Shown here piece after piece: positions 20,490-24,810 of a DNA stretch of 64,000 bases. The translations under genes were made by a program, and so were the position numbers. Source of the DNA: an uncultured Butyrivibrio sp. (GTDB lineage: Bacteria; Bacillota; Clostridia; Lachnospirales; Lachnospiraceae); the NCBI GenBank assembly GCA_945928575.1, contig CAMENP010000005.1:62001-126000 (forward strand). The letters run 5' to 3'. The stretch's first letter is position 1; every line of letters begins with the position of its first letter. The notes below the pieces were generated by a model that was given only the letters and a program-made list of their open reading frames with translations, did no database searches and was not told where the DNA came from.

Positions 20490-21269
20490 TTATTTAAGCG
20501 ATTTAAGCCTGATGTGTTCCGCACATCCGAGAATGAACTCACTGTTAGTAGGCTTATCCTTCTTATTCGGCAGAAAAGGAACAACTATATTATCATTACG
20601 TTCCCACGTCGCTGCTATTATATATCTTATGTTACGCTCCACATTGGTAGATGACGTACCGTATTCTTCGGCAACTGCCGGATATACGGTCTTCGTAATC
20701 GACAAGTCGCTGTCAGGTTCACCGACAGCCATCTCAATTGCGTCGCGCAGATATTTGTATCCGACCATCTTGATCGGCATACCGATCGATCTTAAAAGTT
20801 CAGATATCTCAAGATCCAGGCTTCTGGCTGTATCTTCCTGGCCTGCAGCAGCATTCTCCTGTCCGGCGCCCGATTTGATATGTCTTATTCTCTTAATAAG
20901 TGCCTCACCGTCAAACGGTTTCATCATAAAATAAGTCGCACCGTTATTAAGCGCTTCACTCACTATGTCCTCACGGCCCGCTGCGGACAAAACAATGTAT
21001 TCCGGATGGTAATCTTCCATATCCGCACTGTTCTTAATCCGCATCATAACGCCCATACCGTCAAGCTTAGGCATTACAAGATCAAGCAGAACCACATCCG
21101 GCCGTTCCGCTTTGATCAGTTCGACCGCGCTTTCTCCGTCGGATGCTTCTCCGACGATCGTTAAGTCTTCCTCATCAGCCAATGTATCATGTATCATCTC
21201 TCTTATGATATCATTGTCATCAACAATAGCTACTTTAATTAAATCTGCCAAACCCATAGCTCCTTTCAT
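20490..21269 (-). CDS. Spo0A-like response regulator (REC + Spo0A C-terminal domain); start may be 21257
   Basis: IKVAIVDDNDIIREM...PDVVLLDLVMPKLDG...MMKPFD; ISELLRSIGMPIKMVGYKYLRDAIEM...VYPAVAEEYGTSSTNVERNIRYIIAATWERND...KPTNSEFI. Confidence 0.93.
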   Translation of the reverse strand: MKGAMGLADLIKVAIVDDNDIIREMIHDTLADEEDLTIVGEASDGESAVELIKAERPDVVLLDLVMPKLDGMGVMMRIKNSADMEDYHPEYIVLSAAGREDIVSEALNNGATYFMMKPFDGEALIKRIRHIKSGAGQENAAAGQEDTARSLDLEISELLRSIGMPIKMVGYKYLRDAIEMAVGEPDSDLSITKTVYPAVAEEYGTSSTNVERNIRYIIAATWERNDNIVVPFLPNKKDKPTNSEFILGCAEHIRLKSLK

Positions 21270-21283
21270 CCTTACGTATTATG

Positions 21284-21649
21284 TCATTCCTCAGGGCAGA
21301 GGTAATTCTTTATTACGTTCATAATCGTGCGGTAATTGTCACCGACTTCTTCCACCGTCTGCTTAACTCCGGTCATGTCGCCGGCTCTTAACTTCTCACA
21401 TGCATCATAAATATTCGGAAACATTCTGCGGAATCCGAGATTCCCAACAACACCTTTAAGTGAATGGCAGTGTTCAAATGCTTCCGCACAATCGCCTTTA
21501 TCGAGCGCTTCGATCAACATCTCATAGTTATTATCCGCATAAAAAAGTCTGAGGTACTTGGCATATCTGTCTTCCTTACCGCAGAAACGGGCTATAGCAC
21601 TGTCAACATCAACATCGGCGTTCTTCAATTCATCCTTCCAGTTTGTCAT
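21284..21649 (-). CDS. Hpt-domain phosphotransfer protein
   Basis: AFEHCHSLKGVVGNLGFRRM: canonical Hpt HSLKG motif in a 121-aa protein. Confidence 0.93.
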   Translation of the reverse strand: MTNWKDELKNADVDVDSAIARFCGKEDRYAKYLRLFYADNNYEMLIEALDKGDCAEAFEHCHSLKGVVGNLGFRRMFPNIYDACEKLRAGDMTGVKQTVEEVGDNYRTIMNVIKNYLCPEE

Positions 21650-21735
21650 ATATCCACCTTACGTTTCTAAATCTTTGTACGCATATAAGTATATAACAAA
21701 TTATAAGGACTTAACAACATTTCTCTATCGCTAAT

Positions 21736-24700
21736 CTACGACAAAAACTTATATAATATTGAATACAATGTATCTGCACTCATCGGCTTGGTTATATGGT
21801 CATTCATGCCGCTTTCATGCGTCGCTTCTATGTCTTCTTTAAAGGCATTGGCGGTCATTGCAACTATCGGTACGTTGAGTGCGTAATCGGTTTTAAGGTT
21901 TCTTATTGCCTTTGTCGCATCATAACCGTTCATAACAGGCATCCTGACATCCATAAGTATGAGATCGTACCTGGCCCCACCGGCTATCAGCTCATACGCC
22001 TCCCGGCCGTTGGATGCCGTATCGCATTGTGCATTTACATCCTCAAGATAGTCAACCGCTATATCGGCATTAATATCATTGTCATCAACAACAAGGATTT
22101 TACGTCCGGTAAAATCATACTGCACGACATCATCGCCGACGCTCTCGCCTGAACCCGATTTAAGAATCTTCTGCTCGATTTTCTTGATATCCGACAAAAA
22201 TACCGGTTCCATAACATAAGCTTTCATCCCGGCCTTGTATGAATTCTCATCGAAATATGATTCATCATAAGTTCCCGCCACAACTACCGGACGGCTGTCG
22301 TTGCACATGGATGCGCTTTTGATCCTGGAAATTATATCGTCATTTAAGTTATTGAAATGTATGATGTCAAAGTGTTCTTTTGCCTTATTGACATCAACAT
22401 CCAACGCCTTGTCTATATACTTGAAAGGGATTGATATCGTAAATTTGCTTCCAACGCCTTCCTTGCTGTCGATATCGATTCTGCCGCCGAGCATCTGAAC
22501 ATATTTGCCCGTAATGGACATTCCCAGACCCGTGCCTTCCGTCACAACTGTCATCTTGTTATGTTCACGTTCAAACGGCTGGAAAATCCTGTTGCAGAAT
22601 TCCTTGCTCATGCCGCACCCGTTATCTTCCACTTTAAAAATATATTCTGCAGTTCCGGCGGATATTTCCTGCTGTTCTATGGTGAGGCTTACCTTTCCGC
22701 CGTCCCTGGTGTATTTAATGGCATTCCCTATTACATTGGTAAGTATCTGGTCAAGTTTAAGTCTGTCGCCAACAAGTTCTTCATGCGTCACACCGATTGC
22801 TTTTGCCGAGAATTCCAGTTTCTTATCTCCTGCCTGCTGCTGCAATATTGCTATGATTCCGTGCACAAGCTGCGGAAGAGAAAAATTTTCTTCATTAACC
22901 GTTATTTTGCCACTTTCGATATATGACATATCAAGAACATCATTTATAAGGCTGAGAAGATATTTGGCCGCTGTATCTATTCTGGTAAGGCAGGCCCTTA
23001 CTCTTCCCGTGTCCCCGATGTGATTCAATGCAATATCTGTCATTCCCATGACAGCATTCATAGGCGTTCTCAGGTCATGGGAGATATTTGAAAGGAATTC
23101 TGACTTGGCCCTGCTGGCATTCTTTGCCTCGGCAAGTGCGTCTTTCAGTTCTTTTTTATGTTTGAGTTCAGCCGCCCTTTCATCATGGATATCCTTATAT
23201 GCCATTATAATCTGTTTAACATATCCGCCTTTAAAATGTATAGCCTGCACATCAACCCTTACCCACCTGTAACCGTTATCGAATCTGCGCATAAACTCAC
23301 AATGCATTGACTGTCCTTCTTCGCGCAGTGAACGCCTGATATTGTCTATGTCGACAAAACGCATAACACGCTCTTTGTCTTCATCAAGTACATACCCGCT
23401 TACATATTTGCGCATGACCGATTCATAACAATTATCCGTTACAAGAAGTTCATGGACTGCGCCATCCTCTCTCGCCGGTGAGATCGTGCCTTCGACAAGG
23501 TCACAATAATATATTCCGAAATAAGCATCTCCCAGTGCAAAAAGAATATTTCTCAACATTGCCGTCTGGTCATCCAACAGACTGATTCTCGCACGGTTGG
23601 CTGCACGCTCATCAATATTTCGTACCAGGAGGAGCTTACGTCCGCCCTCCGGCAGGTTAATATATGTCGAAAATCCATTCAGATAATGGACCATTCCGCG
23701 TCCGTCTTCAGCCCTGTATTCACGTTCGACAAAGCCTTTACGTCCCGGTACAGCCTCATCAAGAAGGGACTCAAAAATATAATAATCCTCTTCATAAACA
23801 AGTTTCTTCATCATATCAATAAAGTCACTGAAGCGACCTGTTCCGCACGGAAGCAGAGTATGATCATCACTGTACAGGCAATTATAATAGTCATTTTCTT
23901 CATCAATTATCATATTGAGAATGTAAATCTTGGATACGGCGGTTGAATTGATAATGGAGGCCGTATCCCGTTCAATCTGTTCATTGCACTCTTTAATAGC
24001 ATATATCACATAAGGTCTTTCGTCCGAATAATTCTTATCCGGCGTAACCACGAGCTTAAGCCACCTTCCGCCACGCTCCCTGTAATATGCTTCCATCGGT
24101 TCGCGGCTTGCCTTCAGGTGTTCCCTTATATTGGCGATGGTAGGTTCTTTTTCCCCCGCTTTGACATATCTAAGTTCAACACCGTTTCTGATATAATTTT
24201 TCTCAAGTTCCTCAAAGTCCGCAAAATCATCCACAAACTGCGTTCTGTCAAAGTTCATAAGTATTACTTCATATGAACATGTAACGATATTAACTCTGTA
24301 GATAACCTGATAAGACTCCGCAAGCGATGTAATGATATCATTGCTTCTGCCGAGTTTCTGTTCTTCCTCAAGTTCATGTTCATATTTAACTATTCCCAGT
24401 AAAAAAGTGCGTTCTTTGACAGCCGGATTCCTTACCTCAACAACTCTTGCCGACATATATCTGTCATCAACCGTCTTATATGATATTTCGGCTGTAGAGT
24501 TATTGTCCATAGTCCGCTTAAGTCCCGAAAGTGACATATACTTTCTGACCCTGATCCTGTCAACATCGCATACGAAAGTATCACAATATGCTTTAAGCCC
24601 ATCTTCATACCCCTTATCCGATTCAGCCATTGAATCATATCGGGCCGGCATATACATAACGGAAAACGTATCGCTTTCAGCGCCGATCACAAACAATGCA

Positions 24701-24810
24701 TTATATCTGCCGCACAGTGCTTCTATGATAGCATTCTTTTGTTCATCGCCCATATCATATATACGTTTTCTGTTAACTTTCCTGTCTTCGGTATCAAATA
24801 TTCTGTCCAC
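21736..24810 (-). CDS. Hybrid sensor histidine kinase (PAS-like sensory region, HisKA, HATPase, receiver)
   Basis: FLSNISHDLRTPMNAVMGM; NVIGNAIKYT, VEDNGCGM, GTGLGMSI; REC KILVVDDNDIN...YDLILMDVRMPVMNG...PIVAMTANAF...ITKPMS; no obvious TM. Confidence 0.95.
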   Translation of the reverse strand: MDRIFDTEDRKVNRKRIYDMGDEQKNAIIEALCGRYNALFVIGAESDTFSVMYMPARYDSMAESDKGYEDGLKAYCDTFVCDVDRIRVRKYMSLSGLKRTMDNNSTAEISYKTVDDRYMSARVVEVRNPAVKERTFLLGIVKYEHELEEEQKLGRSNDIITSLAESYQVIYRVNIVTCSYEVILMNFDRTQFVDDFADFEELEKNYIRNGVELRYVKAGEKEPTIANIREHLKASREPMEAYYRERGGRWLKLVVTPDKNYSDERPYVIYAIKECNEQIERDTASIINSTAVSKIYILNMIIDEENDYYNCLYSDDHTLLPCGTGRFSDFIDMMKKLVYEEDYYIFESLLDEAVPGRKGFVEREYRAEDGRGMVHYLNGFSTYINLPEGGRKLLLVRNIDERAANRARISLLDDQTAMLRNILFALGDAYFGIYYCDLVEGTISPAREDGAVHELLVTDNCYESVMRKYVSGYVLDEDKERVMRFVDIDNIRRSLREEGQSMHCEFMRRFDNGYRWVRVDVQAIHFKGGYVKQIIMAYKDIHDERAAELKHKKELKDALAEAKNASRAKSEFLSNISHDLRTPMNAVMGMTDIALNHIGDTGRVRACLTRIDTAAKYLLSLINDVLDMSYIESGKITVNEENFSLPQLVHGIIAILQQQAGDKKLEFSAKAIGVTHEELVGDRLKLDQILTNVIGNAIKYTRDGGKVSLTIEQQEISAGTAEYIFKVEDNGCGMSKEFCNRIFQPFEREHNKMTVVTEGTGLGMSITGKYVQMLGGRIDIDSKEGVGSKFTISIPFKYIDKALDVDVNKAKEHFDIIHFNNLNDDIISRIKSASMCNDSRPVVVAGTYDESYFDENSYKAGMKAYVMEPVFLSDIKKIEQKILKSGSGESVGDDVVQYDFTGRKILVVDDNDINADIAVDYLEDVNAQCDTASNGREAYELIAGGARYDLILMDVRMPVMNGYDATKAIRNLKTDYALNVPIVAMTANAFKEDIEATHESGMNDHITKPMSADTLYSILYKFLS

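Follow-up and report, generated by a model that had tools for sequence, protein, structure and literature searches.

A hybrid kinase, an Hpt protein and a second Spo0A encoded side by side in a clostridial sporulation cluster: a candidate phosphorelay

The stretch of DNA analyzed here (the window; 64,000 nucleotides of contig CAMENP010000005.1 from a gut bacterium, Butyrivibrio sp., genome G000) carries three consecutive minus-strand genes (24810-20490) for a hybrid histidine kinase, a stand-alone histidine phosphotransfer protein (Hpt) and a divergent Spo0A-type response regulator, here termed Spo0A2. We propose, with belief and doubt about evenly balanced, that this trio constitutes a dedicated, genus-specific His-Asp-His-Asp phosphorelay that ends in a second, rewired Spo0A, partly insulated from the canonical Spo0A, and that it tunes the Spo0A programme. 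The gene content and order, their conservation, the catalytic residues and the paralogy of the regulator can be read directly from the sequences. All three open reading frames proved intact. Together with Pfam and NCBIfam assignments and hydrophobicity analysis, they confirm the arrangement given in the original prediction, namely a hybrid kinase without transmembrane segments, a stand-alone Hpt and a Spo0A-domain regulator in direct succession.

The genus was sampled with five species (genomes G000, G013, G120, G121 and G122), and for three of these genomes the public records are metagenome assemblies under the label Butyrivibrio sp. In all five, Spo0A2 sits in the same slot. It stands directly before spoVAC in G000, G122, G120 and G121, and is followed in G013 by an inserted metal-pump ATPase gene and then spoVAC. 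The kinase and Hpt genes precede it, in the same slot after spoVAB, only in G000, G122 and the deep-branching G013, where the two genes overlap by 4 bases. Since the three-gene order is thus found again in two further species, with proteins 36-67% identical, the trio is not a product of chance. The presumptive acceptor residues (H578 and D954 of the kinase, H62 of the Hpt, D63 of Spo0A2) are conserved in the relay genomes. A tree of SpoIVA places G013 as the first branch, with 91/83 support for the other four, and unites G120 and G121 in a clade (100/99). The simplest history would have the trio present in the ancestor of the genus and the kinase and Hpt lost before G120 and G121 diverged, with other histories conceivable in view of the moderate support. 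Matches to spoIVA above the cut-off in all five genomes fit spore formation, without proving it.

Across the family, Hpt profile matches are present in 201 of 298 genomes, and stand-alone Hpts are common. The 28 best Hpt loci outside the genus, viewed with short flanks, contained partial receiver matches at most and no Spo0A_C, and the other full-length Spo0A paralogues of the family that were checked showed neither a trio nor a spoVA context. The trio was therefore not found outside the genus among the loci examined, which are a sample obtained by pattern-based searches, with short flanks around many of the Hpt matches. Among the best 80 genome-contig relatives of Spo0A2, all except three genus records were nearer to canonical Spo0A, and Spo0A2 is so far known in one genus only. 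The neighbourhood survey called for by the original prediction shows, with the trio in three of five sampled species, an adjacency that is not unique to this genome.

The kinase carries its acceptor histidine, H578, in the HisKA domain and its acceptor aspartate, D954, in the C-terminal receiver, which is a domain of the kinase and not a stand-alone protein of the Spo0F kind. It is soluble, as no 19-residue stretch reaches membrane-span hydrophobicity (maximum 1.33, versus 2.1-2.2 for SpoVAB and SpoVAC). Residues 1-540 had no Pfam match, and a low-confidence model suggests about four PAS-like strand/helix repeats there; the prediction for the full-length protein was poor (mean confidence, pLDDT, 54). 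A degenerate receiver probably lies at about residues 815-885. The Hpt matches its profile (PF01627, with an HSLKG-type phosphohistidine motif) at 25.7 bits against a cut-off of 24.6, and its two orthologues score 28.8 and 25.5. This weak assignment is backed by a confident AlphaFold model (pLDDT 93, predicted template modelling score 0.83), which predicts a helical-bundle Hpt fold, and by the solved structures that resemble it. The 17 best matches are all Hpt by name or accession, with template modelling (TM) scores of 0.58-0.80 and E-values of 0.01-0.12; matches to the Hpt 3myf have TM 0.78-0.80, with Foldseek E-values of about 0.01 only. As a query on its own, the Hpt retrieved no relative from the genome contigs.

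A Spo0B-like role for the Hpt had also been suggested, which holds as an analogy only. The relatives of Spo0B are the HisKA portions of kinases, and the protein encoded here is a classical Hpt. Pfam returned the Hpt family and no Spo0B/HisKA-type match, NCBIfam returned no match, and Spo0B was absent from the Hpt's PDB sequence matches and from the 50 listed fold matches. We thus rejected its identification as a Spo0B.

Whether the chain closes within a genome is best seen in G013, a single contig of 2.52 Mb. PF01627 matches there comprise CheA, the trio Hpt and a weak match inside the only other hybrid kinase found, so that G013 has no stand-alone Hpt besides that of the trio, and no hybrid kinase other than the trio's lacks an Hpt-like domain. 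With no other obvious partners for either among kinases and Hpts, the two pair by elimination. The output partner is not fixed in this way (G013 has 33 receiver domains), and adjacency points to Spo0A2. G000 presents a different picture: some nine additional hybrid kinases lack a clear Hpt, and one other stand-alone Hpt is present. Because of these kinases, the trio Hpt may serve others as well. It could be a hub that drains several of the hybrid kinases of G000, roughly ten in all, with canonical Spo0A or other regulators among its targets besides Spo0A2. A promoter-like element of its own before hpt, as in G000 and G122, would fit such a role. However, G013 keeps the trio with just one other hybrid kinase, which has its own Hpt-like domain, and we consider a hub rather unlikely.

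The regulator belongs to the Spo0A family and is a paralogue, not an orthologue, of canonical Spo0A. In the window it combines a Pfam receiver with Spo0A_C (about 105-107.3 bits), passes NCBIfam spore_0_A (TIGR02875) with 216 bits versus a curated cut-off of 200, and keeps the receiver residues D17, D18, D63, S95 and K117. The same genome encodes a canonical Spo0A on contig C2, with a Spo0A_C score of 159.7 bits versus 107.3 for Spo0A2, to which it is 39% identical. Across the genus, Spo0A_C scores are 153-160 bits in canonical copies versus 103-108 in Spo0A2, and between G000 and G013 canonical Spo0A is 72% identical versus 47% for Spo0A2, making the canonical copy the slower-evolving one. 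In a tree of 61 proteins, Spo0A2 forms a single clade (support 100/99); canonical Spo0A from G000 and from G013 clusters with its counterparts in other Lachnospiraceae. Spo0A2 is under purifying selection (ratio of nonsynonymous to synonymous substitution rates, dN/dS, of 0.19 for G120 versus G121). Canonical Spo0A was found in four of the five genomes. The fifth, G121, shows the divergent copy only; its assembly (L010) is fragmented at 97% completeness, and canonical Spo0A may be missing or unassembled. A literature search on Spo0A paralogues found nothing to the point.

The DNA-binding domain of Spo0A2 is conserved at some residues and altered at others. E213, R214 and R217 of the recognition helix (B. 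subtilis numbering), which we take to be the base-contacting residues in B. subtilis, are kept in all five Spo0A2 proteins and in all 56 other Spo0A proteins. Around them, R211N, A215N and H218Y are fixed in the five, at positions that the other proteins fill with R (48 of 56), A (51 of 56) and H (54 of 56). The FGYT(V/I) segment (F236-G237-Y238-T239-(V/I)240), presumably part of the sigma-A contact region in B. subtilis, is absent from every Spo0A2; among the 56 others, F236 is present in 54, G237 in 54, Y238 in 49, T239 in 47 and I or V at 240 in 50. In addition, two of the five Spo0A2 proteins have five residues fewer between the helix and the KPTN motif.

These data bear on the idea that the relay is the organism's route to phosphorylate its sporulation master regulator, as an independent analogue of Spo0F-Spo0B-Spo0A. 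The gene content, the place in the sporulation cluster and a regulator that clears the curated spore_0_A cut-off speak for it. The presence of a better-scoring and more slowly evolving canonical Spo0A in four genomes, and the loss of the FGYT(V/I) segment from Spo0A2, make it quite improbable. The self-contained His-Asp-His-Asp set of the original prediction survives in its content, its Spo0A-type output and its occurrence in three of five species, and its output turns out to be a divergent paralogue in a separate clade instead of the genome's Spo0A. Because canonical Spo0A is encoded elsewhere, the trio says nothing about how the real Spo0A is phosphorylated.

Partner recognition was compared at seven receiver specificity positions taken from Davidson et al. 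2018 (PMC6136694). In G000 and G013, canonical Spo0A has NRMLDVD there. Spo0A2 has NIIMDTD (G000), NIVMDTD (G122), NLVMDGD (G013), SLTLDYN (G120) and SITLNYD (G121), and the kinase receivers of the three relay genomes have NINIDYS, NINIDYC and NINIDYN; the G122 residues of Spo0A2 and the residues of all three kinase receivers were read by hand from alignments. Position 14 is I or L in all five Spo0A2 proteins and I in the kinase receiver of all three relay genomes, versus Q, R, E or K in 40 of 49 scorable other Spo0A proteins, an approximate count because seven others were unscorable and a few of the 49 are misplaced in the alignment. This change suggests an altered partner surface of Spo0A2. 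The shared residue is not proof of a shared Hpt.

We infer each phosphotransfer step, the DNA target and the effect on sporulation from these features. The soluble kinase would sense a cytoplasmic signal, autophosphorylate on H578 and pass the phosphate to D954 of its own receiver, from which H62 of the Hpt would take it and hand it to D63 of Spo0A2. Drift of Spo0A2 from canonical Spo0A at the partner-recognition surface would keep the two inputs largely separate. Spo0A2 probably still recognizes DNA related to 0A boxes and may contact RNA polymerase differently, so that it would modulate, not replace, the canonical Spo0A programme. A more specific form of this proposal is possible, though we doubt it: canonical Spo0A would be fed by its own kinases and Spo0A2 by the dedicated relay, and phosphorylated Spo0A2, acting on overlapping 0A-type sites without canonical polymerase recruitment, would serve as a brake on, or re-router of, sporulation that is gated by the relay.

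Several observations weigh against a dedicated relay. Spo0A2 persists in G120 and G121 without kinase and Hpt, which indicates that it can work or be phosphorylated otherwise; the nearest Hpts of these species (83-85 bits versus the profile) are paired with a REC-HD-GYP gene. Both species also carry I or L at position 14, so that this change is independent of the relay, and an isoleucine at this position of the kinase receiver may be no more than the usual state in receivers of hybrid kinases. The further hybrid kinases without a clear Hpt in G000 and the lack of a conserved 0A box among the relatives count on the same side.

The chromosomal setting was also considered as an accident, with the trio regulating a non-sporulation process and merely located in an insertion-prone locus. 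The minus-strand order is spoIIAA-spoIIAB-sigF-spoVAA-spoVAB-[kinase-hpt-spo0A2]-spoVAC, then a 2112-residue surface-type protein, more genes and spoVAD-spoVAE. Unrelated inserts do occur in this cluster, namely the surface-type protein between spoVAC and spoVAD in G000 and the metal-pump ATPase of G013. Nevertheless, Spo0A2 holds the same slot in all five species and the metal-pump insert is absent there in the other four, and the output domain is of Spo0A type with its presumed base-contacting residues kept, which gives this explanation a low probability.

Table 1 Features of the locus in the window
Feature	Position	Strand	Basis or remark
Soluble hybrid histidine kinase, 1024 aa	21736..24810	-	Pfam HisKA, HATPase_c, C-terminal receiver
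Stand-alone Hpt, 121 aa, phospho-acceptor H62	21284..21649	-	Pfam Hpt, AlphaFold, fold search
Spo0A2, Spo0A-type response regulator, divergent paralogue, D63	20490..21269	-	Pfam, NCBIfam, tree
spoVAB, upstream edge of insertion slot	24914..25363	-	Pfam
spoVAC, downstream edge of insertion slot	19964..20422	-	Pfam, NCBIfam
Sporulation cluster head: spoIIAA 27504-27166, spoIIAB 27163-26738, sigF 26729-25998	25998..27504	-	Named by sequence and conserved order only
Sigma-A-like promoter TTGATT-17-TATAAT, upstream of kinase gene	24851..24879	-	Consensus match
Promoter-like TTGTTA-18-TATACT, between kinase and Hpt genes	21688..21717	-	Consensus match
Exact 0A-box-like site TTTGTCGAA, just upstream of kinase -35	24895..24903	+	Weak

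Compared with known systems, the trio shares with the Bacillus relay KinA-Spo0F-Spo0B-Spo0A, also verified in Desulfotomaculum acetoxidans (PMC6136694), the His-Asp-His-Asp logic, a Spo0A-type end and a soluble kinase with PAS-like modules. It differs in that its first receiver is fused to the kinase, a classical Hpt stands in Spo0B's stead, the genes are clustered instead of scattered, and the output is a second Spo0A paralogue. In Clostridia, orphan kinases phosphorylate Spo0A directly, and hybrid kinases with receivers have been implicated in C. beijerinckii and A. thermocellus, for which the review names no relay partners (PMC11210211). The trio resembles these systems in its clostridial spore-gene context and its hybrid kinase with receiver; unlike them, its kinase is adjoined by genes for an Hpt and a Spo0A paralogue. 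The domain order (kinase-receiver, Hpt, output receiver) is that of the ArcB, BarA and RcsC relays, whereas the Hpt is fused in ArcB and BarA and stand-alone here, with Spo0A_C as the output domain. G121 (L159) and G120 (L160) share a conserved pair in which the gene for a stand-alone Hpt comes after a REC-HD-GYP gene. The resemblance of these Lachnospiraceae pairs to the trio lies in their being the nearest Hpts of those species, and their Hpt is adjoined by an HD-GYP regulator in place of a kinase or Spo0A.

A 2024 review saw room for a novel relay in the hybrid kinases and described dozens of families as uncharacterized (PMC11210211), and the route of Spo0A phosphorylation is open in most clostridial families. 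With kinase, relay protein and regulator encoded together, the whole chain is testable with three purified proteins, and the two sister species in which the relay was apparently lost (G120 and G121) serve as a control. The locus also offers a natural case of a duplicated master regulator gaining new input residues with its DNA-contact residues kept.

Regarding expression, the promoter elements in Table 1 are matches to consensus only. The kinase gene of G122 has a similar sigma-A-like element upstream, the counterpart of the element before hpt in G122 is TTGTTT-18-TATAAT, and a similar promoter-like element lies ahead of spo0A2 in G120 and G121. Being sigma-A-like, these promoters suggest that expression is not confined to the forespore. 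The idea of a conserved 0A box ahead of the kinase gene was rejected, as the site occurs in G000 only and has no counterpart in the relatives; TGTCGAA shows no enrichment in the window (5 occurrences versus 8.4 expected). Spo0A2 probably starts at the TTG at 21251 rather than the ATG at 21269, because the former has a ribosome-binding site common to a relative.

The second stand-alone Hpt-domain protein of G000 (215 residues, L007:4380-5027, contig C2) is encoded directly downstream of a putative gene for a GerA-type spore germination protein, whose end it overlaps. Tandem full-length Spo0A gene pairs are present in a number of other Lachnospiraceae and related genomes (L065, L075, L170-L173), and in the L170-L173 pairs the two copies sit in separate tree clades. 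Some Lachnospiraceae genomes (G070 and others) have up to nine Spo0A_C matches, many in short frames of 110-200 residues, which are perhaps DNA-binding domains without a receiver. Finally, the 2112-residue protein of the window (13564-19902), which parts spoVAC from the genes leading to spoVAD-spoVAE (10171-8787), is secreted and repeat-rich, with List_Bact repeats, many asparagine-glycine repeats and a membrane-anchor-like C-terminus.

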